This document shows, piece after piece, positions 4,794 through 24,205 of a stretch of DNA of 64,000 bases. Source of the stretch: Natronococcus sp. A-GB1 (GTDB taxonomy: Archaea > Halobacteriota > Halobacteria > Halobacteriales > Natrialbaceae). The notes beneath the pieces are model-generated. The model saw nothing but the letters and a program-made list of their open reading frames with translations. It did no database searches and had not been told where the DNA came from. The number at the start of each line of letters is the position of its first letter. The stretch's first letter is position 1. The stretch spans positions 124,001 to 188,000 of the forward strand of contig NZ_JARUKW010000004.1 of NCBI RefSeq assembly GCF_029688845.1, written 5' to 3'. The position numbers and the translations under genes are program-made.

Positions 4794-7700
4794 GCCTTCC
4801 GTATCGGCTCTCGGAACTGATCACGTCGTACTCCAAGATCGTCATCGTCGCGTTACTGTTGACTACGGCGCTCGTCGGCGCAGGAATGCCGATGGTCGAC
4901 GACGACTCCTCGCTCGACCAGTTCGAGGGCGAGTCCGAGGAAGCCGAAGCCCTCGAGGAGATGGACGACAACTTCGCCGCGGAAGGCGATGAGAACACGA
5001 CCTCGGTCCAGCTGATACACAGAGACGAGGGCGGGAACGTCCTCACGCAGGAATCGCTGATCACCTCGCTCGAGTTCCAACAGGAGATCCGCGATAACGA
5101 ATCGATCAACGCGACGCTGGCCGACGACGATCCAATCACCGGCGTCGAGAACATCCTCGCGATGACCGCGATCACGAACGAGGAGATCGACGAACTCGAG
5201 GAGCGCGGCGACGAACTCGCCGACCGCGAGGCCGAACTCGAGAACCGCAGCAACGTCCTCGAGGAGGGTATCGATGACGTCACCGAGCTCCAGCGCGAGT
5301 ACGAGGAGGCGTCGGCCGACGGAGACGAGGCCGCGGCCGACGAGATCGACGCCGAGATCGAGGCGGCGATCGACGGGGCGGTCGACGAGGCCGAACTCGA
5401 CGCCGACCAGGCCGACGAGTACGAGGAGTTCGCCGAGGACGCCCGCGAGGTCGAAACCAACCGCTGGATGCTCGAGCGACAGGCCGAGCTGCCGCCCGAG
5501 GAGCTTCCCGAATACCAGGAACTGAACGAGGCCCTCGAGGAGGTCTACACCGGCGCGACGGTGGGCGTACTCGCCGAGGAGTTCGAACAGCTCGAAGAAG
5601 ACGCCGCCGAACTCGAGGAAGAGCAACAGGAACTCGAGAGCCAGGCCGAAGCGCTCGAACAGCAAGAAGCCGAACTCGAGGCCCAAACTGAGACGCTCCA
5701 GTCGGGGCTCGAGGAGGTAATCGAACTCGAGTACCAGTACGAGCTAGCGAGCGCGGCCGGCGACGACGACGAGGCGGCCGCCGCCGAGGCCGAAATCGAG
5801 ACGGTAACTCAGGAGACGATCGCCGAGGCCGACCTCGACGACGAACAGGCCGCCGAGTACGAGGCCGCCGTCGAGTCGGCCCGCGAGGAGATCACCGTCT
5901 CCGAGGAAGACCTCGCCGAACTCGCCGGCGGCGACGCCGCCGAGCTCGAGGCCCAGCAGGCGGAACTCGAGAGTCAGGCCGAAGCGCTCGAACAGCAGGA
6001 AGCCGAACTCGAGGCCCAAACTGAGACGCTCCAGTCGGGCCTCGAGGAGGTAATCGAACTCGAGTACCAGTACGAACTGGCGAGTGTGGCCGGCGACGAG
6101 GCGGCTGCCGCCGACGCCGAGGCCGAGATCGAGGCGACGATCGACGAGACGGTCGCCGAGGCCGACCTCGACGACGAACAGGCCGCCGAGTACGAGGCCG
6201 CCGTCGAGACGGCCTGGGAGGAGATCGACGCGGACGAGATGGACGCGGGAGCCGACGAGCTACAGACGAACGGCGCCGAGCTCGAGGCCCAGCAGGCGGA
6301 ACTTGAGGAGCGCGGCGACGAACTCGCCGATCGCGAGGCCAAGCTCGAGGAACGTGTCGAGACCCTCGAGGACGGACTCCTCGAGATCGCCGAACTCCGC
6401 GCCGAGCTGGCGGCGACCGACGACGAGGCCGCGGCCGAAACGATCGAAGACGAGATCGAGGCGACGATCGCCGAAACGATCGCTGACGCCGACCTGAACG
6501 GCCAGCAGGTCGCCGAGTTCGAGGCGCTCGCCGAGACCGATCCCGACGAACTCGAATCCGCCGAGGACGACCTCGAGGCGGACGACGGACTCGAAACGCT
6601 CGCCGTCGCAGCCGCGGGCGTCCTCGATGCGGAGTTCGACCAGCTCGAAGACGACGCAGCCGAGCTCGAGGACGATCAGGAGGCCCTCGAGGCCGAGGCC
6701 GCCGAGTTTGAGGACGCGGCCGGCGACGACGTCGAGGAACAGCTCGATCCCGCCGACGCGGGGCTCGAACCCGACGAAGACGAACTCGAGGCGGTCTTCA
6801 CTGCCGCGACGGCAGGCGTTCTCGAGGAGGAGTTCGCCGCGCTCGAGGCCCAGGCCACCGAACTCGAGGAGCAACAGGAGGCCCTCGAGGCCGAGGCCGC
6901 CGGGCTCGAGGACGCAGCCGACGCCGACCCCGACGAGTTCGATCCCGCCGAAGCCGGGATCGGACCGGACGAAGACGAGCTCGAGGGGGTCTTCACCGCC
7001 GCGACGGCGGGCGTCCTCGACGACGAGATCGCCGAACTCGAGGCCGAGGCCGCTGAACTCGAGGATGGCGGACAGGAACTCGAGGAGGACGGACAGGAAC
7101 TCGAACAGCGGGAGTCCGCGCTCGACGACCGTGCGACGACGCTTGAGCAAGGTCTCGACGAAGTGCTCGAGCTCCAGCGCGAGTACGAGGAGGCGTCCGA
7201 GGCTGGCGACGACGAAACCGCGGCCGAGATCGAAGCCGAGATCGAGGCGACCATCGAGGAAACGGCGACCGAAGCCGAACTCGACGCCGAGCAGACCGAC
7301 CAGTACACGGAGCTTGCCGAGCAGGCCCGCGAAATCGAGTCCAACCGCTTCGCGATCGAGGAGATGCCGGACGATCCCGAGGAGAGTCCCGAGTACCAGG
7401 AGCTCGAGGAGGCCCTCGAGGGGATCTACGCCGGCGCGACGATGGGCGTCCTCGAGGACGAGTACGAGCAGCTCGGCGACGACGCCGAGGCGCTCGAGGA
7501 GGCCTGGGACGAGTTCGAGGAGGACGACGAGACGCCGTCGCTCGACGAGCAGATCGAGGCGCTCGAGGACTTAGACGACGAGGAGTTCGAGGACCTCATC
7601 GGAGACGTACTGGACGAGGACGACGACGGCAACGAGGGCGCGGCGCTCGGCTTCATGCCCTCGGACTACGAGCCCGGCTCGACCGAGGCCGACGCCCGGA

Positions 7701-9787
7701 TGACGATGGTCACCCAGGAGACCGTCGGCGGCGACATGGAGATGGGCGGCGAGATGGACGCGACCCTCGAGACCCAGCTTGATCTCCGCGAACTCGCGAA
7801 CCAGCACGAACAGGAGTACGTCATCTTCGGCGCCGGGATCATCACCGACGAGATCGAGAACTCGATGGACGACAGCCTCGCGATCGTCGGTCCGCTGGCG
7901 CTACTGTTCGTCGTCGCCGCGCTGGCGGTCGCCTACCGCGACCCCCTCGACATCGCTCTGGGAGTCGTCGGGATCGGCGGCGTACTGATCTGGACGTTCG
8001 GCTTCATGGGCTGGGTGGGGATCGCGTTCAACCAGATGATGATCGCCGTTCCCGTGTTGTTGATCGGGCTCTCGATCGACTATGCGATCCACGTCTTCAT
8101 GCGCCATCGGGAGCAACGCGAGGCGGAAGGGAAGACGAGCACCGTCCGCGGGTCGATGGCGATCGCGCTGGCCGGCGTCGGCGTCGCGCTCGTCTGGGTG
8201 ACGGCGACGACGGCGATCGGCTTCCTCGCGAATCTCGTGAGTCCGATCGCTCCGATCCAGGAGTTCGGAATCGTCAGTGCGTTCGGAATTGTCGCCGCGC
8301 TGATCATATTCGGCGGCCTGATCCCGGCACTGAAAGTCGAGATCGACTCGCTGCTTGAATCCCGTGGCTGGAGCCGGCGCAAGCGCGCGTTCGGGACCCG
8401 CGAGGGCGGGTTCACGAGCGCGCTGACGCTCGGCTCGAGCGCGGCCCGGAAGATCCCGGTGATCGTCCTGATCGCGGCCCTTCTGCTCACGGCTGGCGGC
8501 GTCTACGGCGCGACCCAGGTCGACACCAGCTTCGAGGAGGAGGACTTCCTCGCGGAGAGTCCGCCCGGCTGGACCGAACACCTGCCGGGGTCGATGGCGC
8601 CCGGTGAGTACCAGGCCGCCGACGACCTCGAGTACATCAACGACAACTTCCAGCGCGAGGACACGGAGGCACAGATACTCGTCGAGGGCGGAATAACCGA
8701 CGACGGGACCTTACAGCAGCTCAACGAGACCCAGGACGAGGCGTCCCAGAGCGACGTCGTCTACACGCTGCCGAACGGCGAGGCGGACGTCCAGGGGCCG
8801 CTGTCCGTGATGGAAGACACTGCAGCCGAGAACGAGTCGTTCAACGAGTCGTTCCAGGCTGCCGATACGACCGGTGACGGCGTCCCCGACCGGGACGTCG
8901 AGGCGCTGTACGACGAGCTGTTCGAGGTCAACGAGGACGAAGCGAGCACGGTCATCCACCGGACCGCCGACGGTGAGTACGAGTCGGTTCGGCTGATCGT
9001 CGCGACCGACGGCGGCGCGAACGTCGGCGACGTCACCACCGAGCTGCGATCGATCGCCGGCGACCTCGACGCCGCCAGCACGGGCGACGAGCGCAACCTC
9101 GACGCAGGCGAGGGCGAACTCAACGCCTTCGCCACCGGCGACCCGATCGTCAACTACATCGTCGAACAGGACCTGCTCGAGACGGTCCTGCAAAGTCTGC
9201 TGATCACGCTCGTGGCCGTCTTCGCGTTCCTGACGGTCGCGTACAAGCTCACCGGCAACAGCGCGACCCTCGGGGCGGTGACCCTGCTTCCGGTCGCGTT
9301 CGCGGTCAGCTGGATCCTGGGGACGATGTACCTGTTCGGGATGCCGTTCAACGTGCTGACGGGGATGATCACCAGCCTCACGATCGGGCTCGGCGTGGCC
9401 TACAGCATCCACGTCAGCGCCCGGTACACGCTCGAGTTACAGCGCCAGGGCAACGTCTGGTCGGCGATGCACACAACAGTGACCGGAACCGGGGGCGCGT
9501 TGCTGGGCAGCGCCGCGACGACCGTCGGCGGCTTCGGCACCCTCGCCTTCGCGATCCTCCCGGCGCTTCGGCAGTTCGGAATCATCACGGGGATGACGAT
9601 CATCTACTCGTTCCTCGCGAGCGTGATCGTCCTGCCGACGCTGCTCGTGCTGTGGACGCGGTACTTCGGCCCGGACGTCTCGTTCGACCGCTCGAGGGCG
9701 GGAGCCGCGACGCCGGCCGCGAGCGACGGCGGGACCGAGATGGAAACGGACACCGTCTCTGAGAACGCAGGGGAGGACGAACCGTGA
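4790..9787 (+). CDS. RND/MMPL-type membrane protein with a giant acidic coiled-coil insertion
   Basis: 1665 residues. Seen: a first membrane helix at about residues 12-32; a roughly 800-residue Glu/Asp/Ala-rich heptad region (about 130-940) on the outer side; five membrane helices at about 1028-1184; another near 1219-1240; a second outer domain; and a final group of membrane helices at about 1462-1625. That is the two-times-six helix plan of RND/MMPL proteins, with sterol-sensing-type blocks such as GLSIDYAIHV and GLGVAYSIHV. Ordinary family members have short outer domains, so the insertion is exceptional; it holds repeats that include a 333-bp tandem unit. Family members move lipids or small molecules, or organise envelopes; the substrate here is unknown. 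It is preceded by a leader ORF with a Shine-Dalgarno element and shares GTGA with the next gene. Confidence 0.9.
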   Translation: MSLPYRLSELITSYSKIVIVALLLTTALVGAGMPMVDDDSSLDQFEGESEEAEALEEMDDNFAAEGDENTTSVQLIHRDEGGNVLTQESLITSLEFQQEIRDNESINATLADDDPITGVENILAMTAITNEEIDELEERGDELADREAELENRSNVLEEGIDDVTELQREYEEASADGDEAAADEIDAEIEAAIDGAVDEAELDADQADEYEEFAEDAREVETNRWMLERQAELPPEELPEYQELNEALEEVYTGATVGVLAEEFEQLEEDAAELEEEQQELESQAEALEQQEAELEAQTETLQSGLEEVIELEYQYELASAAGDDDEAAAAEAEIETVTQETIAEADLDDEQAAEYEAAVESAREEITVSEEDLAELAGGDAAELEAQQAELESQAEALEQQEAELEAQTETLQSGLEEVIELEYQYELASVAGDEAAAADAEAEIEATIDETVAEADLDDEQAAEYEAAVETAWEEIDADEMDAGADELQTNGAELEAQQAELEERGDELADREAKLEERVETLEDGLLEIAELRAELAATDDEAAAETIEDEIEATIAETIADADLNGQQVAEFEALAETDPDELESAEDDLEADDGLETLAVAAAGVLDAEFDQLEDDAAELEDDQEALEAEAAEFEDAAGDDVEEQLDPADAGLEPDEDELEAVFTAATAGVLEEEFAALEAQATELEEQQEALEAEAAGLEDAADADPDEFDPAEAGIGPDEDELEGVFTAATAGVLDDEIAELEAEAAELEDGGQELEEDGQELEQRESALDDRATTLEQGLDEVLELQREYEEASEAGDDETAAEIEAEIEATIEETATEAELDAEQTDQYTELAEQAREIESNRFAIEEMPDDPEESPEYQELEEALEGIYAGATMGVLEDEYEQLGDDAEALEEAWDEFEEDDETPSLDEQIEALEDLDDEEFEDLIGDVLDEDDDGNEGAALGFMPSDYEPGSTEADARMTMVTQETVGGDMEMGGEMDATLETQLDLRELANQHEQEYVIFGAGIITDEIENSMDDSLAIVGPLALLFVVAALAVAYRDPLDIALGVVGIGGVLIWTFGFMGWVGIAFNQMMIAVPVLLIGLSIDYAIHVFMRHREQREAEGKTSTVRGSMAIALAGVGVALVWVTATTAIGFLANLVSPIAPIQEFGIVSAFGIVAALIIFGGLIPALKVEIDSLLESRGWSRRKRAFGTREGGFTSALTLGSSAARKIPVIVLIAALLLTAGGVYGATQVDTSFEEEDFLAESPPGWTEHLPGSMAPGEYQAADDLEYINDNFQREDTEAQILVEGGITDDGTLQQLNETQDEASQSDVVYTLPNGEADVQGPLSVMEDTAAENESFNESFQAADTTGDGVPDRDVEALYDELFEVNEDEASTVIHRTADGEYESVRLIVATDGGANVGDVTTELRSIAGDLDAASTGDERNLDAGEGELNAFATGDPIVNYIVEQDLLETVLQSLLITLVAVFAFLTVAYKLTGNSATLGAVTLLPVAFAVSWILGTMYLFGMPFNVLTGMITSLTIGLGVAYSIHVSARYTLELQRQGNVWSAMHTTVTGTGGALLGSAATTVGGFGTLAFAILPALRQFGIITGMTIIYSFLASVIVLPTLLVLWTRYFGPDVSFDRSRAGAATPAASDGGTEMETDTVSENAGEDEP
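5630..6295 (+). repeat. 333-bp tandem repeat inside the RND coiled coil
   Basis: Two consecutive units (5630-5962 and 5963 to about 6295) match closely at DNA level. The first 120 or so bases differ at only a few positions, and a second near-identical block falls at 5821 and 6154, again 333 bases apart. It encodes an 111-residue acidic heptad unit. More diverged copies of the same protein pattern flank it at about 5185-5640, 6300-6700 and 7080-7540. Confidence 0.85.
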
Positions 9788-12513: not shown

Positions 12514-12972
12514 CTACTTTACGAGCGTCAGCAACTCACAAGAGAGCGCGACCGCCCCGTCGTCGGTCACGAGGCGCGTCTCGTAGCGGGCGAGGCCGTT
12601 GCCCACGGGGTGGTCGCGGGGCTCTTTCTCGATCAGTTCGGACTCCGCGTGAACCGTCGTTCCCATCGTCACGGGCTCGGTAAACCGCAGCGAGTCGACG
12701 CCGTAGAACGCGACCGTCTCGGGTCGCTCGTGACGGTGTTGCCAGAGCAGCCCCGTCGTCACGGCAAACAGCAGGGCACCGTGAGCGATCGGCTCGCCGA
12801 ACGGCAGGTCGGCCGTGTAGCTCTCGCTCAGGTGCAGCGGGTTGAAGTCACCGCTGACCCCCGCGAACTCGCGCACGTCGGCCTCGGTGAGCGTCCGCGA
12901 GTGGGTGATCGTCTCGTCGCCGACCTCGAGATCCACGAACCTGACGGCCCCGTCGTCGTTCGCGTCGCCCAT
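12514..12972 (-). CDS. MaoC-like (R)-specific enoyl-CoA hydratase
   Basis: 152-residue hot-dog-fold hydratase. Seen: the hydratase-2 motif SGDFNPLH with catalytic Asp42 and His47, followed by the PIAHG turn. Such enzymes add water to trans-2-enoyl-CoA to give the (R)-3-hydroxyacyl-CoA. Its ATG follows directly after the stop codon of the upstream dehydrogenase/hydratase fusion (no spacing), which indicates one transcript and coupled translation. Pairing with an (S)-type fusion enzyme could allow epimerisation of 3-hydroxyacyl-CoA; that is inference. Confidence 0.9.
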   Translation of the reverse strand: MGDANDDGAVRFVDLEVGDETITHSRTLTEADVREFAGVSGDFNPLHLSESYTADLPFGEPIAHGALLFAVTTGLLWQHRHERPETVAFYGVDSLRFTEPVTMGTTVHAESELIEKEPRDHPVGNGLARYETRLVTDDGAVALSCELLTLVK

Positions 12973-14934
12973 CTACCGGCCCTCGAACTCCGGCTCGCGG
13001 TCCTCGGCGAACGCCGCGGTCCCCTCGCGGACGTCGTCGGTGCCGATGAGCAGGCCGAAACCCTGGCTTTCCATCGCCAGCGCCGCCTCGAGGCTGGCGT
13101 CCTCGCCTCGGTTCATCACCTTCTTCGCCACCTCGAGGCCAAGCGGCGGCCCCTCGCGCAGGTCGTCGACGAACGCCTCGACCGTCTCGTCGAACTCGTC
13201 GCGGTCGACCGCGCGGTTGGCGAGCCCCCAGTCGGCGGCTCGCTCGGCATCGATGTGGTTGCCCCGGAAGACCAGTTCCTTCGCGCGCGTCTCGCCGAGG
13301 ACGCGCATGAGTCGCTGTGTACCGCCACCGCCCGGAATGAGTCCAAGGCCGATCTCCGGTGCGCCGAACGACGACCGCTTCGTCGCGATCCGAAGGTCAC
13401 AGGCCAGCGCGAGCTCGAGGCCGGCGCCAAGGCAGTAGCCGTCGATCTTCGCCAGCACGGGCCGCGGAAACTCGTTGACCGTCTCGAAGGCGGGCGTCAC
13501 GTCCATCGCGTCGGTGGGCTCGAGTGATCCGAAGCCGCCGATGTCGGCACCTGCGCTGAAGGCCCGATCGCCGGTGCCCTCGATCGTCGCACACCGGAGC
13601 TCGTCGGTGTCGACCGTCGAGAAGAGGTCGTCGATCTCGCCCAGCAGATCCGCCGAGAGAGCGTTCATCCGCTCGGGACGATCGAGCTCCACCTGCAGGA
13701 CGCCGTCATCGATCCCGGCGTTCAGGTAGCGGTAGGAGTCGAGGTTGCTCGCGCCGCCGTCGCCGTACTCGTAAAAGCCCGCGCCGGCGTCCTCGCCGGT
13801 CTTCCCCGCCGCGACGAGCTCGCGCAGGTACGGGTGGGGTTCGAACCGATCGTCGCCGGTTTCCTCGTACTTCGCTTCGAGTTTCTCGAGCACCCTATCG
13901 AGACCGATCTTGTCCGCGCGACGGCAGATCCCCTCGGGGAAACCGAGGCCGAGGCGGACGCCGATGTCGATCGCCTCGGGGGTCGCGACGTCCTCGCCGA
14001 CGAGGTACGCCGCGCGGTTGATCATTCGGGCCTCGACCTGCAGCGTGTCGAACCCCTCCCCCTGGCCGGGTTCGTAGTCGGGACCGTCATCCGTCTCGTA
14101 GTCGTAGAACCCCTTTCCGGTCTTCTTCCCCAGCTCTTCGGCCTCGACCTTCTCGGCCATGATCGAGGGGACATCGTCGCCAGCCTCCTTGCGGACGTGG
14201 TAGCCGACGTCGATCCCCGTCAGGTCGGCGAGTTCGAACGGCCCCATCGGGTAGCCGCGCTCGTGGACCATCGTTGCGTCGGCCTGGCGAACGTCGGCGT
14301 CGCCCTCCGAAACCATCCAGGCGGCCTCGCCGATAAACGGGCCGACGATGGTGTTGACGACGAAGCCCCGCACGTCCTTGCGGACGTAGATCGGCGTCTT
14401 GTCGATCGACTCGACCCAGTCGTGGCCGGCCTCGGCCGCCTCGTCGCTCGTCTCCCGACCGTAGATGACCTCGACGAGGTCCATCTTCACCGGCGGGTTG
14501 AAGAAGTGCAGGCCGAGGACGCGCTCGGGGGTGTCGACCGCCTCTGCGAGGTCCGTGATCGGTAGACTCGAGGTGTTCGTCGCCAGCAGGGCGTCCTCGT
14601 CCGTGTAGCGCTCGAGGTCGGCGAAGATATCCTGTTTCAGCTCGAAGTTCTCCGGCGCGGCCTCGATCACGAGATCCGCGTCGGCGACAGCTGCCTCGAG
14701 GTCGGTCGTGATCTCGATTCGCGCGAGGATCGCGTCGGCGGGCTCGTCGAGGCGATCCTTCTCCTCGAGTTTCTCGAGGCTCCAGCGAATCGACTCGTAA
14801 CCGTCCTCGGCGTACTCGGGCTCGATATCCCGGAGGACGACGTCGTAGCCCGCCATCGCAGTTACCTCGGCGATTCCGTGGCCCATGTTCCCCGCGCCGA
14901 GGACCGCAACGCGGTCGATGGTGTCGTCTGACAT
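12973..14934 (-). CDS. 3-hydroxyacyl-CoA dehydrogenase / enoyl-CoA hydratase fusion
   Basis: 653-residue bifunctional fatty-acid oxidation enzyme. Seen: an N-terminal Rossmann motif GAGNMGHG at residues 14-21, the dehydrogenase catalytic His in LHFFNPP, two dehydrogenase C-terminal domains (about 185-385), then a crotonase domain from about residue 397 with Glu residues in GAGLELALACD and APEIGLGLIPGGGG. Both glutamates needed for hydration are present. Domain order (dehydrogenase first) is opposite to bacterial FadB/FadJ and is common in haloarchaea. The ATG at 14934 lies 28 bases from a gttaagc element at about 14959-14965, so the transcript is probably leaderless; an upstream in-frame ATG is disfavoured. 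Confidence 0.95.
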   Translation of the reverse strand: MSDDTIDRVAVLGAGNMGHGIAEVTAMAGYDVVLRDIEPEYAEDGYESIRWSLEKLEEKDRLDEPADAILARIEITTDLEAAVADADLVIEAAPENFELKQDIFADLERYTDEDALLATNTSSLPITDLAEAVDTPERVLGLHFFNPPVKMDLVEVIYGRETSDEAAEAGHDWVESIDKTPIYVRKDVRGFVVNTIVGPFIGEAAWMVSEGDADVRQADATMVHERGYPMGPFELADLTGIDVGYHVRKEAGDDVPSIMAEKVEAEELGKKTGKGFYDYETDDGPDYEPGQGEGFDTLQVEARMINRAAYLVGEDVATPEAIDIGVRLGLGFPEGICRRADKIGLDRVLEKLEAKYEETGDDRFEPHPYLRELVAAGKTGEDAGAGFYEYGDGGASNLDSYRYLNAGIDDGVLQVELDRPERMNALSADLLGEIDDLFSTVDTDELRCATIEGTGDRAFSAGADIGGFGSLEPTDAMDVTPAFETVNEFPRPVLAKIDGYCLGAGLELALACDLRIATKRSSFGAPEIGLGLIPGGGGTQRLMRVLGETRAKELVFRGNHIDAERAADWGLANRAVDRDEFDETVEAFVDDLREGPPLGLEVAKKVMNRGEDASLEAALAMESQGFGLLIGTDDVREGTAAFAEDREPEFEGR

Positions 14935-15051
14935 GGTTGTGTGGTCGGCCGGGACGGGCTTAACTCCACCGAACGAAGCTACCAATGTTAGCTATAGTGT
15001 GGTTTTGGTGTACGCCCAGTGCGAAAAGCTCCCGGATGCGTACAGTGGTAA

Positions 15052-15504
15052 CTACTCGGCGTCTCGTCGCCGATAGATCGTGTCCGCGACCCAGCTCATC
15101 ACCAGCTCGTCGTCCTCGTTGTACGTCTCGAGCCGGCTCGTCACGTACCCCCGATCCTCACGGCTCTCGGAGGGACGCTTCTCGAGCACCTCGGTTCGCA
15201 CCGAGAGCGTGTCGCCGGGTTTGACGGGCTGGTGCCAGCGCAGCTCCTCGACGCCTGGCGATCCCATCGCCGCCCGCTCCTCCTCGCCCTCGGGACCGTC
15301 GACGAGCAGCCGCATCGACATCGCGGCGGTGTGCCAGCCCGAGGCGACCAGCTCGCCGAACATGCTGTCGGCTGCGGCCTCCCTGTCGACGTGGAACGGC
15401 TGGGGATCGTACTGCTCGGCGAACTCGACGACCTCCTCCTCGGTCACCTCGTACTCGCCGAACTCGTGGGTCTCGCCGACCTCGACGTCTTCGAAGTACC
15501 GCAT
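15052..15504 (-). CDS. MaoC-family dehydratase
   Basis: 150-residue hot-dog-fold protein of the MaoC family. Seen: YDPQPFHVD (residues 32-40), which replaces the DxNPxH hydratase motif with DPQPFH as in many MaoC dehydratases of acyl-CoA metabolism, and a later ELRWHQPVKPGD segment typical of the family. Its start shares one base with the stop of the upstream kinase gene (TGATG). It therefore probably serves the same pathway as the kinase. The exact acyl-CoA substrate is unknown. Confidence 0.88.
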   Translation of the reverse strand: MRYFEDVEVGETHEFGEYEVTEEEVVEFAEQYDPQPFHVDREAAADSMFGELVASGWHTAAMSMRLLVDGPEGEEERAAMGSPGVEELRWHQPVKPGDTLSVRTEVLEKRPSESREDRGYVTSRLETYNEDDELVMSWVADTIYRRRDAE

Positions 15505-16613
15505 CAGAGCGGTTCCTCCCCCTCGATGATCCGCACCGCGCGCGCGGCCAGCGCGGGCACCCGTTCCTCCATCTTCGGGTACATCGGATCGTCACTGTTG
15601 CCCTCGAGGTAGCGCCGGAAGAACATCTCCCCGAGCGCCGCCAGCTTGTACACCGCAAGCGTGCGGTAGAACCGCTCGTGTGCGAACTCGAACCCGGTCC
15701 TCGACTCCCAGCGCTCGACCAGCTCGAGCCGGCTCGGGTACCCCTCCCGCTCCATGAACGTCGCCGTCAGCTCCGGCACGGCCGGCTCGGGGTCCTTGGG
15801 GTCGCGCCAGTACGACAGCATCCACCCCAGGTCGGCCCGGGGGTCGCCCAGCGTGGCCATCTCCCAGTCGAAGACCCCGACGAGCTCCGGCGTCGCCGGC
15901 TCGCGGACGTCGTCCGCTCGCTCGTCCCGGGACGCGTCGCGTCCCGCTGGCCCATACATCACGTTATCCAGCTTGTAGTCACCGTGAACCAACGTGTGCG
16001 GATGCTCCTCCGGAACGTTCTCCTGGAGCCACGAGCCGACCTCGTAGAGGTCCGGGACCTCCCGCTCTTCGACCGTGGTCTCGAACGCCCACATCAGCTG
16101 CTGGCCCCAGCGTTCGACCTGGCGCTCGGTGTAGCCCGGCGGATAGCCAAACTCCTCGAGCCCGACCGCCTCGTAGTCGACCTCGTGGATCGCCGCCAGC
16201 GTGTCGACCAGCTCCTCGCCGATCCGCTCGCGCGAGCCGGGATCGGCGAAGCGGTCGGGTTCGTCGTCCCGGAGGACATCGCCCGCGAGTCGCTCCATCA
16301 CGTAGAAGTCGCTGCCGATGACGTCGTGGTCCTCGCAGGCGAGCACCGGCTCGGGGATAGGGACGTCGGTGTCGATCAACGCCTTCGTCACCCGGTACTC
16401 CCGGAGCACGTCGTGGGCGGTGTCGGCCGTCTCGCCCGGCGGCGGTCGCCTGATCACCAGATCGCGGTCGCCCCAGGTGAGAAGCAGCGTCTCGTTGGAG
16501 TGGCCCTCCCGGTGACGCTCGATCTCGTAGGTCTCGACGGCGCCCAGCTGTTCCTCGAGGTAGGCCGCCAGGGCGTCCTCATCGACCAGCCGCTCGTAGT
16601 AGGTGTCGGTCAT
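15504..16613 (-). CDS. Aminoglycoside-phosphotransferase-fold kinase, ACAD10/11-kinase-like
   Basis: 369 residues. Seen: an N-terminal lobe with IRRPPPGE and the ATP-site Lys/Glu region, the catalytic loop LVHGDYKLDN near residue 208 and the metal-binding FDWEMATLGDP near residue 240. This set is characteristic of the APH-fold kinases fused to acyl-CoA dehydrogenases in eukaryotic ACAD10/11, which phosphorylate 4-hydroxyacyl substrates. Here the acyl-CoA dehydrogenase is a separate divergent gene. Antibiotic resistance is unlikely given the acyl-CoA context. A 27-codon ORF (16610-16693) ends on its start codon. A tandem MaoC gene follows. Confidence 0.85.
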   Translation of the reverse strand: MTDTYYERLVDEDALAAYLEEQLGAVETYEIERHREGHSNETLLLTWGDRDLVIRRPPPGETADTAHDVLREYRVTKALIDTDVPIPEPVLACEDHDVIGSDFYVMERLAGDVLRDDEPDRFADPGSRERIGEELVDTLAAIHEVDYEAVGLEEFGYPPGYTERQVERWGQQLMWAFETTVEEREVPDLYEVGSWLQENVPEEHPHTLVHGDYKLDNVMYGPAGRDASRDERADDVREPATPELVGVFDWEMATLGDPRADLGWMLSYWRDPKDPEPAVPELTATFMEREGYPSRLELVERWESRTGFEFAHERFYRTLAVYKLAALGEMFFRRYLEGNSDDPMYPKMEERVPALAARAVRIIEGEEPL

Positions 16614-16693
16614 GGCTCGAGGGGATCGGCCCGCTGGTCCGTCGAGGCGTCCCGATTCGTCGACTGCGTCGAGTGGGTGGGTGCATGCGGCAT
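16610..16693 (-). CDS. 27-codon ORF ending on the kinase start codon
   Basis: ATG at 16691-16693, 27 sense codons, TGA at 16610-16612 overlapping the kinase ATG (ATGA). A gttaatc element lies about 21 bases upstream of its ATG. No Shine-Dalgarno sequence precedes the kinase start. It could be a leader peptide or a chance open frame in GC-rich DNA. Confidence 0.3.
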   Translation of the reverse strand: MPHAPTHSTQSTNRDASTDQRADPLEP

Positions 16694-16737
16694 GGTACTA
16701 CCCGCGGTCCGATTAACGAAAATAGTTACGCCCGAAA

Positions 16738-16746
16738 CCTTATCTT
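16738..16746 (+). promoter_or_regulatory. TATA-like box of the acyl-CoA dehydrogenase gene
   Basis: ccttatctt is centred 27 bases before the ATG at 16769. This spacing is right for a leaderless transcript and rules out use of the short ATG-TTC-GTG-TAG frame at 16750. Confidence 0.55.
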
Positions 16747-16768
16747 ACAATGTTCGTGTAGCTAGGGT

Positions 16769-17983
16769 ATGGAGTACCACGACAGCGATCGGGCGCGCGA
16801 GCTGGCCGCTGACGTTCGCGAGTTCGTCGACGAGGACGTGATCCCCGCTGAGCGGGAGGTCCTCGGCGAGGGTCCCGTCTCGGAGGAGACAGTCGAAGAG
16901 CTACGCGAGGCGGCCCGCGAGCGCGGGCTGTACGCCCCGCAGGTCAGCGAGGAGTACGGCGGACTCGGCCTCGCGTTCCGCGACGTCCTGCCGGCGTTCG
17001 AGGAGGCGGGCCGCAGCCTGCTCGGCCCGCTAGCGCTGCGGGTCGACGCGCCCGACGAGGGGAACATGCACACCTTAGAGATGGCGGGCACCGACGAACA
17101 GAAAGAACGGTGGCTCGAGCCGCTGGTCGAGGCCGAGATCCACTCGGGGTTCTCGATGACCGAGCCGATGCAGGGCGGGGGATCGGATCCGAAGATGATT
17201 CGGACCGAAGCCCGAAAGGAGGGCGACGAGTGGGTCCTCGACGGCCACAAGTGGTGGACGACTCAGGGCAGCGAGGCCGACGTCCTGTTGGTGATGGCCC
17301 GCACCGATCAGGACGCCCATCCCTACGAGGGGTGTTCGATCTTCCTCGTGCCGAGCGACGCAGACGGCGTCGAGTACCAGCGCGACATCCCCCACGTCGG
17401 CGGCGAGGTGACGGGAACAAGCCACGCCGAGATCGTCTACGACGGCGTGCGGATCCCCGAGGAGAACCTGCTGGGCGAAGAAAACGCCGGCTTCGCCATC
17501 GCCCAGAAACGGCTCGGCCCCGCGCGGCTCACCCACTGCATGCGCTTTTCCGGGATGGCCCAGCGCTCGCTCGAGGTCGCGAAGGCCTACACGAGCGAGC
17601 GCGAGGGCTTTGGCAGCGCGCTCTCGGAGAAACAGAGCCTGCGCTACGGGATCGCCGACGCCGAGACGCGGCTCCACGCTGCCAGGACGATGGTCCGCCA
17701 CGCCGCCCGCGAGATCGGCGAGGGACGGGAGGCCCGCGTCCCGGTCTCGATGGCGAAGGTCTTCACCGCCGACGTCGTCCAGGACGCCGTCGATCTCTCG
17801 ATCCAGTGCTGTGGCGCCAACGGGATCGGCAAGGACCTGCCGCTGGCGGACTTCTACGAGAACGTCCGCGCGTTCCGGCTCGTCGACGGCGCCGACGAGG
17901 TTCACAAGCGCGTGATCGCTCGCGACGCCTTCGAGGACGTCGACGAGAGCGAGCTCGACCCCGTAACGCGGTTCCGCGGCTGA
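16769..17983 (+). CDS. Acyl-CoA dehydrogenase, ACAD10/11-like
   Basis: 404-residue flavin dehydrogenase forming a 2-enoyl-CoA and passing electrons to ETF. Seen: GFSMTEP flavin-contact segment near residue 129, the KWWTTQG segment near residue 162, and a C-terminal FRLVDGADEVHKRVI stretch near residue 371, where Asp/Glu in DGADEVH occupies the base region as in ACAD10/11-type enzymes rather than the YEGTNEI of common short-chain forms. The LGPARLTHCMR segment also fits that branch. It is divergent from the kinase gene across 155 bases, so co-regulation is likely. Chain-length preference cannot be read. Confidence 0.9.
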   Translation: MEYHDSDRARELAADVREFVDEDVIPAEREVLGEGPVSEETVEELREAARERGLYAPQVSEEYGGLGLAFRDVLPAFEEAGRSLLGPLALRVDAPDEGNMHTLEMAGTDEQKERWLEPLVEAEIHSGFSMTEPMQGGGSDPKMIRTEARKEGDEWVLDGHKWWTTQGSEADVLLVMARTDQDAHPYEGCSIFLVPSDADGVEYQRDIPHVGGEVTGTSHAEIVYDGVRIPEENLLGEENAGFAIAQKRLGPARLTHCMRFSGMAQRSLEVAKAYTSEREGFGSALSEKQSLRYGIADAETRLHAARTMVRHAAREIGEGREARVPVSMAKVFTADVVQDAVDLSIQCCGANGIGKDLPLADFYENVRAFRLVDGADEVHKRVIARDAFEDVDESELDPVTRFRG

Positions 17984-17998
17984 GGACCGCGGGTCCGC

Positions 17999-19120
17999 TC
18001 AGGTCGTGTCGAGATCGAGCCGCGATAACGTCCAGTCGTCGATGGAGCTGTTTTCGACCGCGGCGCTGGCGTCGAGATCCCGCGCGAGCAGTGTCCGTGA
18101 CGACGGCCGAACCACCGTCGAGAGGGGTGGCCGCGTATCGGGAAAGAACCGGTACCGAATCGGTCTCGGCAGCGTCTCGCCGAATGCCGTGACGAACTCC
18201 CGGCGCTCGCGGTCGGCGAGCGCGGCGACGAGAAGTCGTTCGAGCGCCCCCCGTTCGGCCTCGAGCGCTCGCGGGACCGTCTCGACGATCCGGACGCGGT
18301 CGTCGACGTCCGCGGTGACGAGCGCGGCCACCGGCTCGTCGTCGCGTCTCGCGACGTACGTCGTGTACGCGTGTTCGGGGTTGGCGAGCCGCCAGCGGAA
18401 GAACGTCGCCGTTCGGTTCGTATGCATCGCCTCGGGAATCGATCGTCGGTAGGCCGTCGCGAGCGCCTCGGCGGGCGACGATTCGTGGCGCTCGAGGGCG
18501 ATCTCCGCGTCGGGCGCCAGGAGCCGATCCCCCGTTCGATGGGCACCCTCAACGAGCCGGCTCGCAAACGATTTCGCGACCGCGGTCGCAGCGCGTCCGT
18601 CGGCTCGCACCGGCGCTTTGGCTCCCGTTCCGTCGGTCCACCGCTCGAGGGCGCCGACGGGATCCCGAACTCGGTAGTACAGCGGGACGGTGCCGATCTC
18701 CCGCCAGCCGTGGTTGAGATTTCCTCGCTTCGAGGCCTCGTTCGGGAAATTGAAGAAGAAGGCGGGGCCGCTTTCGGCGTACCGCTCGAGGGTCCGTTCG
18801 TTCATTCGGTCGAACAGCCCGCGCCTGCGGTAGTCGGCGTGAACCATCGTATCGCAGGGCTGGAACGCCGTTCTGACCGTGCCGTGGCCGCGCATCTCCT
18901 GGGCGAACAGCGAGCGACAGCCGACGAGTCTGCCGTCGTCCTCGGCGACGACGATCGGAACGTGGTCGACGTAGGGGTTGTCCTCGTACTTCCAGCGGAA
19001 CCAGGCGGACGATCGCCCGCGACCGAACACCTGCTCGTACAGCGAGAGGAACGCCTCTCGGTCGCCGGGCTGGAACTGCCGGATCGTAACCCGCGACGTC
19101 CGTCGACTGGCCGTTTTCAT
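17999..19120 (-). CDS. GNAT-family N-acetyltransferase
   Basis: 373 residues from the ATG at 19120. Seen: an N-terminal GNAT domain (VTIRQFQPGDREAFLSLY), a central acetyl-CoA-site-like segment HADYRRRGLFDRM, and a NFPNEAS stretch characteristic of the Eis/FemX-like GNAT proteins; the C-terminal half is a second, less conserved GNAT-like region. Substrate is unknown. An in-frame GTG at 19165 would add 15 residues and lies 31 bases from an aactatctac element, so it is a real alternative start. A 9-codon ORF (19144-19146 start) ends on the ATG at 19120. The gene is convergent with the acyl-CoA dehydrogenase gene. Confidence 0.78.
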   Translation of the reverse strand: MKTASRRTSRVTIRQFQPGDREAFLSLYEQVFGRGRSSAWFRWKYEDNPYVDHVPIVVAEDDGRLVGCRSLFAQEMRGHGTVRTAFQPCDTMVHADYRRRGLFDRMNERTLERYAESGPAFFFNFPNEASKRGNLNHGWREIGTVPLYYRVRDPVGALERWTDGTGAKAPVRADGRAATAVAKSFASRLVEGAHRTGDRLLAPDAEIALERHESSPAEALATAYRRSIPEAMHTNRTATFFRWRLANPEHAYTTYVARRDDEPVAALVTADVDDRVRIVETVPRALEAERGALERLLVAALADRERREFVTAFGETLPRPIRYRFFPDTRPPLSTVVRPSSRTLLARDLDASAAVENSSIDDWTLSRLDLDTT

Positions 19121-19305
19121 GGTGTGGAGGTTGTACCGCGGTTCATCCGGGATCGAGCGCGCCACCGATCACGTTCGTTCTCCACCGGACTTGTAGATAG
19201 TTCTTGAGCCTGAATACGCCGGAATTTACGGGATAGAGAACTTCTCGAGTCGATCGACGTCATATACGCGTACACGTTTTCGAGCGGGATCGCCTCCCTG
19301 ATCCG

Positions 19306-20040
19306 TCAGGCATCTCGCTCTCCGTCGACGATCTCGAGGATCTCGAGCGGTGACTCGATTCGGTAGGCAACGGCGGGACCGTCCTCGGCGCCGAAGGCGA
19401 CTCCGTGCAGTCCCGCCTCGTCGGCCCCGCGGACGTCGTGGTCGTACCGGTCGCCGATCATCAGCGATCGTTCGGCCGGGACGCCCGCCTTCTCGAGGGC
19501 CGTCTCGAACATCGCGGGATCGGGCTTCGTTCGGCCGACCTCCTCGGAGGTCGTGATCGAGTCGAACCGCTCGCGGACGCCGAAGCGCTCGAGCATCCAC
19601 TTCCCTTCGTCGTCGTCGACGTCGCTGACGACGCCGACGTGAAGCTCCCGGTCGGTCAGCCGCTCGATCGTCTCCACGGCGCCGGGAACGGGTTCGATCG
19701 ACTCCCCGGCAGCCGCCCGAAACGCCGGCTCCCATTCCTCGCGAGGAACCGGGTCGCCGACGACCGCCTCGACGCCCTTCCGGTAGCCGTCGCGGGCGGC
19801 CCGGAACTCCGTCCCCTCGCGCCCGCGGAAGTGGTCGCCGACCGCAGAGCGCCAGGTCGCGAGCGCCTCCTCGATCGTCGCGTCGACCGCGCGGCGCTCG
19901 AGGAGCTCCGCGACGAACGCGGTGTGGGCGGTCCGGACCGACTCGAGGTCGAGGATGACGCCGCCGATATCCCAGAAGACGGCCTCCCACTCCTCGACTG
20001 CGTCCGGATCGCCGGCGCCGTCGTGTGAACCCCGACTCAT
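19306..20040 (-). CDS. HAD-superfamily hydrolase
   Basis: 244 residues. Seen: motif I FWDIGGVI with the nucleophile Asp but Gly instead of the second Asp (DxGG type, as in several phosphatases), motif II VVSDVDD, Lys in GRTKPDP, and motif IV IGDRYDHDVRGA. An alpha-helical cap occupies about residues 30-105. It is probably a small-metabolite phosphatase or dehalogenase-like enzyme. Its ATG overlaps the TGA of the upstream flavoenzyme gene (ATGA), so the two are one operon; no known pathway joins them directly. Confidence 0.88.
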   Translation of the reverse strand: MSRGSHDGAGDPDAVEEWEAVFWDIGGVILDLESVRTAHTAFVAELLERRAVDATIEEALATWRSAVGDHFRGREGTEFRAARDGYRKGVEAVVGDPVPREEWEPAFRAAAGESIEPVPGAVETIERLTDRELHVGVVSDVDDDEGKWMLERFGVRERFDSITTSEEVGRTKPDPAMFETALEKAGVPAERSLMIGDRYDHDVRGADEAGLHGVAFGAEDGPAVAYRIESPLEILEIVDGERDA

Positions 20041-21221
20041 CGTTCGGCCCGTCGGATCGTCGATCTGTCGAGTTCGTCGACGCTCGCCCGGCCCGAGAGC
20101 CCGACGGTGAGGTCGAGATCGGCGAGGAAGTTTCGCAGCACGGCCTCGACGCCGTCGGCGCCGCCGATGCCGAGCCCGTAGGCGTACGGTCGCCCGAGCA
20201 GGACGGCGTCGGCACCGAGCGCGATCGCCCGGATGGCGTCGCTGCCCCGGCGAATTCCGCTGTCGAACAGCACGGGGACGTCGTCGCCGACGGCCTCGGC
20301 GATCTCGGGAAGGGCCTCGAGCGCTGGGATCGCGCCGTCGACCTGACGACCGCCGTGGTTCGAGACGATCAGGCCGTCGACGCCGTGCTCGACGGCGCGG
20401 CTGGCGTCGTCGGGGTGGAGCACGCCTTTGAGGACGATCGGCAGATCCGTATGCTCGCGCAGGAACGAGAGGTCGTCCCAGGTGAGCGAGGCGTCGCCGA
20501 AGCAGTCGGTAAACGACTCGAGGGAGGCCTCGGGGTCGGCCCACGGATCGTCGGTCTCGAGGCGGTCGCAGAAGGCGTCGTCCTCGAAGTAGTTCCTGAT
20601 CCCCTGGCCCTCGAGGAAGGGGAGGTAGGCGAGTTCGATGTCGCGTTCGCGCCAGCCCATCTTCGGCGTGTCGAGGGTGACGACGATCGCCTCGAACCCC
20701 GCATCTTCGGCGCGCTCGAGAAAGCTCGCGGCCACGTCGCGGTCGGCGCTCCAGTAGAGCTGGAACCAGCCGGTCGTCTCGAGTTGGTCGGCGATCTCCT
20801 CCATCGTGTACGACGAGACGGAGCTCGAGATCATCGGCACCCCGACGACGTTCGCCGCGCGGGCGACCGCGAGTTCGGCCTCGTCGTGGAGGATCCCCTG
20901 GACGCCGATCGGCGCGAGCAGGACGGGTGCGGAGAGCTCGCTGCCGAACAGTTCGACCGAGAGGTCGCGATCGGAGACGTCCTGCAGGATCCGCGGGACG
21001 ATCTGCCAGGCGTCGAAGGCGCGGTCGTTCGCCTCGACGGTCGACTCGGAACCCGCGCCGCCGGCGACGTAGGCGAACGCCTTCTCGTCGAGTTCCTCGC
21101 GGGCGCGCTCCTCGAGGCCCTCGTAAGCCACCGGGAACTCGGGCGGCTCGCCCTCGAGCATTCCCTGTCGGTACACTGTCTCCTGTCGATCCGGCCCGTA
21201 GTTGGTGTCTTCGCCTGTCAT
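20037..21221 (-). CDS. FMN-dependent alpha-hydroxy-acid oxidase, lactate 2-monooxygenase-like
   Basis: 394-residue flavoenzyme oxidising a 2-hydroxy acid. Seen: PVLLAPIGVQ near the FMN site, VVTLDTP, KGVLHPDDA with the FMN-contact Lys, catalytic SNHGGRQVDG (His and Arg), and DSGIRRGSD plus LLGRPYAYGL for phosphate binding. A long insertion with WRERDIELAYLPF and GIRNYFEDDAF resembles that of lactate 2-monooxygenase. The product could be pyruvate with H2O2, or acetate with CO2. The ATG at 21221 is preferred over an upstream in-frame start at 21362 that would add 47 unmatched residues. It forms an operon with the HAD gene. Confidence 0.9.
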   Translation of the reverse strand: MTGEDTNYGPDRQETVYRQGMLEGEPPEFPVAYEGLEERAREELDEKAFAYVAGGAGSESTVEANDRAFDAWQIVPRILQDVSDRDLSVELFGSELSAPVLLAPIGVQGILHDEAELAVARAANVVGVPMISSSVSSYTMEEIADQLETTGWFQLYWSADRDVAASFLERAEDAGFEAIVVTLDTPKMGWRERDIELAYLPFLEGQGIRNYFEDDAFCDRLETDDPWADPEASLESFTDCFGDASLTWDDLSFLREHTDLPIVLKGVLHPDDASRAVEHGVDGLIVSNHGGRQVDGAIPALEALPEIAEAVGDDVPVLFDSGIRRGSDAIRAIALGADAVLLGRPYAYGLGIGGADGVEAVLRNFLADLDLTVGLSGRASVDELDRSTIRRAER

Positions 21222-21327
21222 AGTAGTGTGGAAACGACGAGCGTCGCTCGGGTGTGCGTACTGGTGACGATTCTCCTCGACACCCTTAACGATGCGGGGG
21301 TTGTACCCATCTTTATTAACAGCGTCT

Positions 21328-21351: not shown

Positions 21352-21387
21352 ATGGTAATCACACTCGCAGCGGGTGACTTCCGATGA
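21352..21387 (+). CDS. 11-codon leader ORF overlapping the SDR start
   Basis: ATG at 21352-21354, 11 sense codons, TGA at 21385-21387 overlapping the SDR ATG (ATGA). A gggtga element (21373-21378) ends 5 bases before the SDR ATG and could act as Shine-Dalgarno. Same arrangement as at 4746. It is too short to judge by codon use. Confidence 0.3.
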   Translation: MVITLAAGDFR

Positions 21388-22160
21388 GCACCGATCAGTT
21401 CGGCGTCGACGGCGACGTCGCGATCGTCACCGGCGCCTCGAGCGGCATCGGCGCGGCGATCGCGAAGGGGTTCGCCGACGACGGGGTCGACGTGGTGATC
21501 TGCTCGCGCGAGCAGGAGAACGTCGATCCCGTGGCCGAGGAGATCGAGGAGAGCGACCGCCCCGGATCAGCCCTGCCCGTCGAGTGCGACGTTACCGATC
21601 GAGATGCCGTCGACGCGCTGGTCGAGGCGACCGTCGAGGAGTTCGGCGGACTTGACGTTCTCGTCAACAACGCGGGCGCCTCGTTCATGGCGAGCTTCGA
21701 CGACATCTCCGAAAACGGCTGGAAGACGATCGTCGACATCAACGTCCACGGCACCTACCACTGCACCCAGGCCGCCGCCGAACAGCTCAAAGACGGCGGC
21801 GGGATCGTGATCAACCTCGCCAGCGTCGCGGGCCAGCTGGGCTCGCCGTACATGAGCCACTACGGCGCCGCGAAGGCCGCGGTCGTGAACCTGACGACGA
21901 CGCTGTCCTACGAGTGGGCCTCTGAGGGAGTGCGGGTCAACTGCATCGCGCCAGGCTTCGTCGCGACGAAGGGCGTCGAAAATCAGATGGGGATCTCGGC
22001 CGACGAGGTCGACCGAACGGAGGTAAAACGGCGGATGGGCACCGTCGACGAGATCGCCGACCTCGCGCAGTTCCTCGCGAGCCCCGCCTCCTCCTATATC
22101 GTCGGCGAGACGATCACCGCACAGGGGGTTCCGCGCGTCGAGGAGTCCCCCGAGATATGA
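21384..22160 (+). CDS. Short-chain dehydrogenase/reductase (SDR)
   Basis: 258 residues, classical SDR. Seen: cofactor motif TGASSGIG at residues 16-23, structural NNAG near 95, the catalytic YxxxK as YGAAK near 160 with a Ser about 14 residues before, and PGFVAT near 190. ICSREQ after the second strand suggests NADP use by the Arg, although this is weak. The next gene, an LLM flavin/F420-type enzyme, overlaps its stop (ATGA), so both belong to one oxidoreductase operon of unknown substrate. A leader ORF precedes it. Confidence 0.9.
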   Translation: MSTDQFGVDGDVAIVTGASSGIGAAIAKGFADDGVDVVICSREQENVDPVAEEIEESDRPGSALPVECDVTDRDAVDALVEATVEEFGGLDVLVNNAGASFMASFDDISENGWKTIVDINVHGTYHCTQAAAEQLKDGGGIVINLASVAGQLGSPYMSHYGAAKAAVVNLTTTLSYEWASEGVRVNCIAPGFVATKGVENQMGISADEVDRTEVKRRMGTVDEIADLAQFLASPASSYIVGETITAQGVPRVEESPEI

Positions 22161-23164
22161 CCGACCGGGACGTCCACCTGCCCGTCGCGGCCCAGCCGAG
22201 CGTCGACTCGCTGGCCGACTACGCCGGACGGGCCGAGGACGGCGGCTACGACTGCGTCTGGCTGCCCGAAACCTGGGGCCGGGACGCGGTGACGGTGCTT
22301 TCGACGATCGCCGAGCGAACCGACGAGGTCGACCTCGGCACCAGCATCGTCAACGCCTACTCCCGGTCGCCCGCCCTGCTGGGCCAGACCGCCGCGACGC
22401 TCCAGGAGGCCAGTAACGGTCGGTTCCGGCTCGGGATCGGCCCCAGCGGCCCCGTCGTGATCGAGAACTGGCACGGCCTCGAGTACGGGAACCCACTCAA
22501 GCGGACCCGCGAGACCGTCGAGATCGTCCGGCAGGTGCTGTCGGGTGAGCCCGTCGACTACGACGGCGACGAGTTCTCGCTGTCGGGCTTTCGGCTCCGC
22601 TGTGGAGCGCCCGATCCCGCCCCGCCCGTCGAGGTAACCGGGATGGGACCGAAGGCGGTCGAACTCGCGGGCCGGTTCGCCGACGGCTGGCACGGGATCA
22701 TGCTCACTCCCGACGGCGTTCGGGATCGGCTCGCGGATCTCGAGCGCGGCGCCGGCCTCGGTGATCGAGATCCAGCGGACGTCGCGGTCACCGTTGGGGT
22801 CACCTGCTGTGCGCTCGAGGACGAAGAACGCGCCCGGGAACTCGCCCGCCAGCACGTCGCGTTCTACGTCGGCGGGATGGGAACGTTCTACCGCGACGCC
22901 CTCGAGCGCCAGGGGTACGACGAGGCCGAGACGATCCACGACGCCTGGCAGGAGGGCGACCGGGAACGGGCACTCGAGGGGGTCTCCGACGAGTTGCTCG
23001 ACGACCTCTGTGCCGTCGGTGATTCCGAGACGGCTCGAGAGCGACTCGAGCGGTTCGAGACCGCCGACGGGATCGACGCCGTCGCGGTCAGCTTCCCGCG
23101 GGGTGCCGAAGAGAGCGAGATCGAGGCGACGATGGACGCGGTGGCTCCCGCCTCGGAGAGCTGA
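22157..23164 (+). CDS. LLM-class, probably F420-dependent, oxidoreductase
   Basis: 335-residue TIM-barrel protein of the bacterial-luciferase-like family. Seen: AGRAEDGGYDCVWLPE near residue 25, LGTSIVNAYSRSP with the cis-peptide region, GRFRLGIGPSG, EYGNPLKRTRE and the GFADGWH-like ADGWHGIM segment. This combination matches haloarchaeal F420-dependent members related to methylenetetrahydromethanopterin reductase, which use F420 as hydride donor or acceptor. It is translationally coupled to the SDR gene. The substrate is unknown; the F420 rather than FMN call rests on family resemblance. Confidence 0.85.
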   Translation: MTDRDVHLPVAAQPSVDSLADYAGRAEDGGYDCVWLPETWGRDAVTVLSTIAERTDEVDLGTSIVNAYSRSPALLGQTAATLQEASNGRFRLGIGPSGPVVIENWHGLEYGNPLKRTRETVEIVRQVLSGEPVDYDGDEFSLSGFRLRCGAPDPAPPVEVTGMGPKAVELAGRFADGWHGIMLTPDGVRDRLADLERGAGLGDRDPADVAVTVGVTCCALEDEERARELARQHVAFYVGGMGTFYRDALERQGYDEAETIHDAWQEGDRERALEGVSDELLDDLCAVGDSETARERLERFETADGIDAVAVSFPRGAEESEIEATMDAVAPASES

Positions 23165-23212: not shown

Positions 23213-24205
23213 TCAGTTTCTCTCGAGAATCGACGATTCGATCGGCCACCAGTCCCGATCTTCGATCCCCGTGTGGATCTGTGCGATCAGCCCCAATAGC
23301 GGGAGCTCGAGCAGCGGCCCGATAACCAGCGCCAGCGGGATCAGCGGCTCGTGGGGGAAGGCGACGACGGCGATCGCCAGCGCCGTCGGCGAGTTCCGCG
23401 AGAGGATCGTGTTGTTGAAACAGACCATCTCGCCGTAGGAGAACGAGAGGACGCGGCCGATGCCGAACCCGATGGCGAGGTTGAGCGCGTAGAAGGCGAC
23501 CACCGGAACCGCAAGCAGCGCGAGCAGTCCGGGGTTCTCGAGGACCGCCTGACCCTGCGAGGCGAACATCGCTCCGATGGCGAGGCTGAGGAAGACGATC
23601 TGTACGGGACCGAGTTTCGGCAGGAATGCCCGCCTGAACCACTGATCGCCCCGCCAGCGGATCAGCCCCTTCCGGGCGATACCGGCGAGGACGAGCGGGA
23701 CGACCAACACGAGAACAACGCTCTCGAGCAGCAACTCGAGCGGCAGCTCGACGAGCTCGCCCGCGAAGACGTAGAGGTAGACGGGCAGCAAGACGAGCTG
23801 CAACACGAGGTTGTAGGGCAGGATCGACGTCGCCAGCGGGACGTCGCCGTCGGCGATGTCGGTGAAGATCAGGTACCAGTCGGTACACGGCGTTACCATG
23901 AGCATGATCAGTCCCACCCACAGCGCGGGGTGATCACGGAGGAAGATCGCGCCAAGCCCGACCGCGAACAGCGGGTTCCAGACGAAGTTCACGAGCAGGC
24001 TCGAGCCGGCGACCCGCCGGTTGCCGAAGGCAGATTTGAGTTTCGACAGCGGCATCCCGGCGAACGCGCCGAACAGCATCACCATCAGGAAGGGGAGGAT
24101 GAGCGCGTCGGCGACGGCGGGAACGCCCTCGAGCTGGCCGAGCGCGAGCCCGACGACGATCGCCGCGAGGACCACGGCGGTCTGATACTTCTCGAGGGCG
24201 TTCAC
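23213..24205 (-). CDS. arsB: ACR3-type arsenite efflux permease
   Basis: 330 residues with about ten membrane helices, of the bile-acid/arsenite (BART) superfamily. Seen: LVNFVWNPLFA and the ACR3 signature VTPCTDWY, whose Cys takes part in arsenite transport, and FNNTILSRNSPTAL late in the protein. It exports arsenite using the proton or ion gradient. The start is a GTG at 24203-24205. It is divergent from an arsenate-reductase-like gene 95 bases away, which supports the arsenic role. ACR3-type is clear; arsB is used only as the common symbol. Confidence 0.88.
   Translation of the reverse strand: MNALEKYQTAVVLAAIVVGLALGQLEGVPAVADALILPFLMVMLFGAFAGMPLSKLKSAFGNRRVAGSSLLVNFVWNPLFAVGLGAIFLRDHPALWVGLIMLMVTPCTDWYLIFTDIADGDVPLATSILPYNLVLQLVLLPVYLYVFAGELVELPLELLLESVVLVLVVPLVLAGIARKGLIRWRGDQWFRRAFLPKLGPVQIVFLSLAIGAMFASQGQAVLENPGLLALLAVPVVAFYALNLAIGFGIGRVLSFSYGEMVCFNNTILSRNSPTALAIAVVAFPHEPLIPLALVIGPLLELPLLGLIAQIHTGIEDRDWWPIESSILERN

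Follow-up and report, generated by a model that had tools for sequence, protein, structure and literature searches.

A putative haloarchaeal module for 4-hydroxyacyl-CoA phosphorylation and phosphate elimination

In the bacterial lva route and the animal ACAD10/ACAD11 route, the acid is ligated to CoA, the 4-oxo form is reduced by an SDR enzyme, a kinase produces the 4-phosphoacyl-CoA, and an acyl-CoA dehydrogenase (ACAD) eliminates the phosphate without an external acceptor, to give a 2-enoyl-CoA that undergoes hydration, oxidation and thiolysis. Here we describe a gene pair of this kind from Natronococcus sp. A-GB1 (genome of 4.5 Mb), which lies in a window of 64 kb; this is the whole stretch of DNA that was analysed, and the coordinates refer to it. 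The first gene (15504..16613, reverse strand) encodes an APH-fold kinase of 369 aa, predicted to be a 4-hydroxyacyl-CoA kinase of the LvaA/ACAD10-11 N-terminal domain type. The second (16769..17983, forward strand) encodes an ACAD10/11-LvaC-type homologue of 404 aa, which, from its domains, residues, tree position and fold, is predicted to be a 4-phosphoacyl-CoA phosphate-eliminating flavoenzyme. Judging from the sequences, the two proteins probably belong to a haloarchaeal module for phosphorylating 4-hydroxyacyl-CoA and eliminating the phosphate, i.e. an archaeal version of the lva and ACAD10/11 route.

The components of the lva route of Pseudomonas putida are LvaA (kinase), LvaB, LvaC (ACAD), LvaD (SDR) and LvaE (ligase), and the kinase and the ACAD are likewise encoded by separate genes. 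This is the normal bacterial arrangement (PMC11342911, PMC6692424), and therefore the split state of the pair, which an earlier note on this DNA had pointed out, is not new. The haloarchaeal cluster further resembles the lva system in its ACAD, with phosphate-binding residues and an Asp base, and an SDR is a candidate third partner. It differs in the lack of a ligase and of an LvaB-like DUF6285 protein, in its own haloarchaeal branch, and in the addition of a HAD phosphatase, a 3-hydroxyacyl-CoA dehydrogenase/enoyl-CoA hydratase (3HCDH/ECH) fusion and an F420-linked LLM enzyme. A levulinate cluster of Pseudomonas citronellolis (lvaA, lvaC and lvaD homologues, a histidine phosphatase, no lvaB; PMC6692424) shares with it the kinase, the ACAD, an SDR, a phosphatase and the lack of LvaB; however, its phosphatase is of another fold family, and the archaeal cluster is devoid of a ligase and a transporter. 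Both halves of animal ACAD10 and ACAD11 are homologous to the haloarchaeal proteins, but they are fused, whereas here there are two divergent genes. For this reason we regard the pair as similar in kind and not as ACAD10/11 proteins in the strict sense. The 25-hydroxysteroid kinase (PDB 9fsg) is also an APH-fold kinase acting on an alcohol, but the fold match has an identity of only approx. 20%, the sequences match weakly, and its substrate is a steroid. With the haloarchaeal genes, a known type of enzyme pair gains an archaeal member; the pathway is not of a new sort.

Active site and phylogeny of the two proteins

The window ACAD contains the three ACAD domains PF02771, PF02770 and PF00441. 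Its best matches among solved structures are 4hr3 of M. abscessus and ACAD11 (8v3u/8v3v, 2wbi; E 4e-59 for ACAD11), and its predicted model, with a mean pLDDT of 84.7 and a weak part at about residues 351-375, again has 4hr3 and human ACAD11 (2wbi) as its first fold matches. In mouse ACAD11, the 4-phosphate is bound by R626, H634 and R637 (HCMR motif, which conventional ACADs lack), R631 is general, D753 acts as the base, and mutations of the pocket residues block the ACAD step (PMC12440821). In our alignment, R248, R253, H256, R259 and D373 of the window protein correspond to R626, R631, H634, R637 and D753, the register being settled by the 8v3u/8v3v pair, which differs at D753N. All of the published diagnostic pocket residues are present, and the catalytic base is an Asp (D373), replacing the usual Glu. 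Moreover, P87 matches the Pro that opens the cavity in human ACAD11 (P463; PMC11342911).

This R/R/H/R/D set (RRHRD) distinguishes the window ACAD within its own genome. When 11 of the 12 matches were aligned (L091 was left out), the full set was present in this protein only; nine ordinary ACADs lacked it, and eight of these nine had Glu as the base. The ACAD of Natronococcus pandeyae is 89% identical to that of the window. The genome that contains the window also encodes a second ACAD of the ACAD10/11 type (G000:C15:30899-32104; L070 6900-8132; L089), 68% identical, in which Pro replaces the phosphate-binding His (LTPCMR). It is adjoined by an SDR, with no kinase nearby, and its phosphate-elimination function may have been lost or changed.

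In a 69-row tree, the RRHRD proteins, including ACAD11, form one clade of 62 rows (support 100, branch 1.18), apart from ordinary ACADs. Nearly all of the bacterial relatives, which were fetched by means of motifs elsewhere in the protein, carry the residue set, many of them with an adjacent kinase. This tree and that of the kinase are based on quick searches, with SH-aLRT support only, and do not settle the deeper order inside the superclade; the exact LvaA, LvaC and LvaD sequences of P. putida were left out of the comparisons.

The kinase (157.8 bits to PF01636) contains the catalytic residues Asp212 (HGD), Asn217 and DWE 249-251, which are invariant. Six solved structures were matched, including 9o56 (for which a literature search gave no paper), 3dxp and ACAD11 (8v3u/8v3v; E 1e-44), and over 320 columns the window protein is 31% identical to the kinase domain of ACAD11. 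The best fold match of the model (pLDDT 88.3) is 3dxp (TM 0.76/0.85), followed by the 25-hydroxysteroid kinase. In the phylogenetic tree, proposed as a check in the earlier note, the window kinase falls into a clade of 69 rows that includes the kinase domain of ACAD11 (support 99), and does not group with unrelated phosphotransferases. Kinases of the Thermus type and of the Pseudomonas peradeniyensis type are placed outside this clade, as are four other APH proteins of the same genome, on long branches. With ACAD11 among the best structure matches of both proteins, and with every diagnostic residue of the ACAD pocket in place, the likeness of the pair to ACAD10/11 goes beyond the family level.

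Co-inheritance of the kinase and dehydrogenase genes

The kinase and the ACAD were found in the same 25 of 41 haloarchaeal genomes, and both were absent from the same 16. An order-wide sample (n=145) gave the same picture, with both genes in the same 83 genomes and neither in the other 62. In six genera or more (codes g7, g8, g21, g23, g33 and g42) some genomes have the genes and others do not, and the two always vary together. In at least 24 of the 83 genomes (as read from the two tables) they sit on separate contigs or at a distance of more than 50 kb, and thus their co-occurrence is not explained by physical linkage. Conservation of only one of the two genes, which according to the earlier note would refute such a pathway, was not seen: the co-occurrence is strict. 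Since Pfam and NCBIfam annotate broad families only, the locus might be read as an ordinary fatty acyl-CoA dehydrogenase gene that neighbours, by chance, a gene for an unrelated APH-family phosphotransferase. The RRHRD active site with its Asp base, the separate clade, and the co-occurrence in 83 of 83 genomes, unlinked copies included, make this extremely improbable.

Three other genes follow the distribution of the pair, with Fisher p values that are uncorrected for kinship. The SDR is present in all 25 genomes with the kinase and the ACAD and in 2 of the 16 without them (p 3e-9), the HAD gene in 17 of the 25 and in none of the 16 (p 9e-6), and close relatives of the 3HCDH/ECH fusion in 16 of the 25 and again in none of the 16 (p 3e-5). 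Gene neighbourhoods in other genera keep the kinase, HAD and SDR genes together even when the ACAD is encoded elsewhere. Such an arrangement, observed in several genera, would fit a kinase that acts chiefly together with the HAD phosphatase, in a phosphate cycle serving regulation or detoxification, and has the ACAD as a secondary partner. The ACAD, however, is encoded in every kinase genome, whereas HAD is missing from 8 of the 25, which identifies the ACAD as the stricter partner of the kinase and renders a cycle of this type very improbable.

Genes surrounding the pair

The genes named in the earlier note for the region 12514-17983 (two MaoC genes, the 3HCDH/ECH fusion, the kinase and the divergent ACAD) were all confirmed. 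The kinase and the ACAD are indeed separate, divergent genes, 155 bp apart (16614..16768), and both promoters are presumed to lie within this intergenic region. The MaoC-like hydratase 1, presumably an enoyl-CoA hydratase (15052..15504, reverse strand; PF01575), is coupled to the kinase, whose stop codon overlaps its start by one base (TGATG). Among the loci read, Natronococcus and Haladaptatus are the only genera in which it adjoins the kinase. Further along the same strand lie the 3HCDH/ECH fusion of 654 aa (12973..14937; PF02737, PF00725, PF00378), suited to the next steps of beta-oxidation, and the MaoC-like hydratase 2 (12514..12972; PF01575), with the SGDxNPLH motif of the hydratase-2 type; these two genes abut, with a gap of zero.

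The SDR and HAD phosphatase genes, which are part of the module in relatives, are placed here outside 12514-17983. The SDR oxidoreductase (21384..22160, forward strand; NCBIfam SDR models) is a candidate 4-oxoacyl-CoA/4-hydroxyacyl-CoA reductase in the role of LvaD. Its gene overlaps by four bases that of an LLM-class F420-dependent oxidoreductase (22157..23164, forward strand; 561.7 bits to TIGR04024), a common neighbour of the SDR across loci. An FMN-dependent 2-hydroxyacid dehydrogenase-like gene is located at 20037-21227. Between the ACAD and HAD genes there is a gene for a GNAT-type acetyltransferase (17999-19165), which is kept in Natronococcus (68-96% identical) and was not seen in the corresponding loci of other genera.

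The HAD-type phosphatase-like protein (19306..20013, reverse strand; PF00702) has a motif I of the form D-x-G and not D-x-D, and D-x-G HAD proteins are common. This motif resembles the HAD domain of ACAD10, in which only the first Asp is reported to be present (PMC11342911); the kinship seen between the two is at the superfamily level. In haloarchaea a HAD phosphatase gene is often found beside the kinase, and in Halocatena a 2-phosphosulfolactate phosphatase-like gene. A minority of bacterial loci, namely L031 (Thermus), L037 (Deinococcus), L038 (Sulfitobacter), L100, L101, L104 and L109, have a histidine phosphatase gene near the APH kinase, like the levulinate cluster of P. citronellolis. 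We rejected the idea that the kinase is generally accompanied by a phosphatase, since with the probes used such a gene lay no more than 3 kb from the kinase in only 8 of 49 related loci; we retain this as a minor observation.

A transporter gene at 23213-24205 was considered as an uptake component and rejected, because its best score was to the arsenite efflux protein Acr3 and it is adjoined by an arsC-like gene. The segment 23213-25801, which encodes this SBF-fold transporter, the arsC-like low-molecular-weight phosphatase and a HypE/ThiL-like protein, is likely an arsenic module, unrelated to the kinase and the ACAD. A 4-hydroxybutyryl-CoA dehydratase was dropped as a competing route, as no match to this family above the cut-off was obtained in the host genome. 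Elsewhere in the window (4790-9787) there is a gene for a membrane protein of 1665 aa that by eye resembles the RND/MMPL type and contains very long, acidic coiled-coil repeats; a TrmB-type regulator follows it.

The predicted route and its substrate

In the proposed route, an acyl-CoA ligase encoded elsewhere would supply a 4-oxo- or 4-hydroxyacyl-CoA, the former being reduced to the latter by the SDR. The kinase would phosphorylate the 4-hydroxyl at the expense of ATP, as suggested by its family, fold and catalytic residues. In the FAD-dependent ACAD, Asp373 would then take the C2 proton, while R248, H256 and R259 would hold and release the 4-phosphate; given the roles shown for these residues in ACAD11, the expected product is a 2-enoyl-CoA, formed with no net oxidation. 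This may be hydrated by a MaoC protein or by the ECH domain and oxidised by the 3HCDH domain, which would complete its entry into beta-oxidation. By kinship and residues, the window appears to hold candidates for every step except ligation and thiolysis. The natural substrate may be levulinate or another 4-hydroxy or gamma-lactone acid.

Several observations weigh against this route. No CoA ligase (LvaE role) was found among the genes of 8-26 kb in the window, no thiolase is present in the cluster, and DUF6285, the probable LvaB family, is absent from all 41 genomes. The cavity Pro is not conserved in the Haloferax and Halocatena orthologues. The haloarchaeal ACADs form one branch within the RRHRD superclade, with a Chloroflexi protein next to it, and are not sister to ACAD11; because ACAD11 sits in another branch, the window protein is best described as an ACAD of the same kind and not as a strict orthologue. 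In favour of the route, Haloferax mediterranei, which carries the kinase (E6P09_RS18925), ACAD (E6P09_RS18920), 3HCDH/ECH fusion, HAD and SDR genes on plasmid pHME132, can grow on levulinic acid, at up to 0.097 per hour (PMC12455835); this growth is compatible with the proposed role, short of proving that these genes account for it. As the ligase, thiolase and LvaB are all absent from the cluster, and the MaoC genes adjoin the kinase in few relatives, the complete route for 4-hydroxy acids envisaged in the earlier note is unsupported. What stands of its split ACAD10/11-type archaeal pathway is the kinship, borne out by the trees, the active-site residues and the strict co-occurrence.

In halophilic archaeon DL31 and in Natrinema, a CoA ligase gene is situated close to the pair. 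DUF6285 proteins are encoded directly beside kinases of the Thermus/Pseudomonas type (L031 8083-8430; L100, L101, L108, L109, L117 and L121), and from their size and position they may represent the LvaB family. LvaB is also dispensed with by animal ACAD10/11 and by the P. citronellolis cluster (the latter PMC6692424).

Since the haloarchaeal ACADs occupy a branch distinct from that of ACAD11 and Deinococcus, their substrate may differ. The same chemistry might act on another acyl-CoA, of a branched, isoprenoid-derived or side-chain acid, and not on simple 4-hydroxy acids. This is also suggested by the LLM F420 oxidoreductase, the HAD phosphatase and the 2-hydroxyacid dehydrogenase-like gene, none of them described for lva operons, and by the distant 25-hydroxysteroid kinase, which phosphorylates a tertiary steroid alcohol. 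Nevertheless, we consider such a substrate unlikely, given that every ACAD11 residue contacting the 4-phosphate is kept, that the kinase is far closer to ACAD11 and 3dxp than to the 25-hydroxysteroid kinase (E 1e-44 vs 2e-7), and that H. mediterranei grows on levulinic acid. A distinct haloarchaeal variant, in which the HAD phosphatase and the F420-dependent oxidoreductase take an active part and the native substrate is not a levulinate-type acid, is a tentative idea that we regard as rather unlikely.

The chemistry of a kinase combined with a phosphate-eliminating ACAD is known in proteobacteria and was demonstrated only recently (2024-2025) in animals, and archaea are unmentioned in the two ACAD10/11 papers (PMC12440821, PMC11342911). 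With the predicted 4-hydroxyacyl-CoA module present in over half of the haloarchaea in the sample, this chemistry would extend to a third domain. H. mediterranei, used for polyester production from acids such as levulinic acid, offers a concrete test system. The sequence comparisons suggest that archaea too could channel 4-hydroxy acids into fat breakdown by phosphorylation and phosphate removal.

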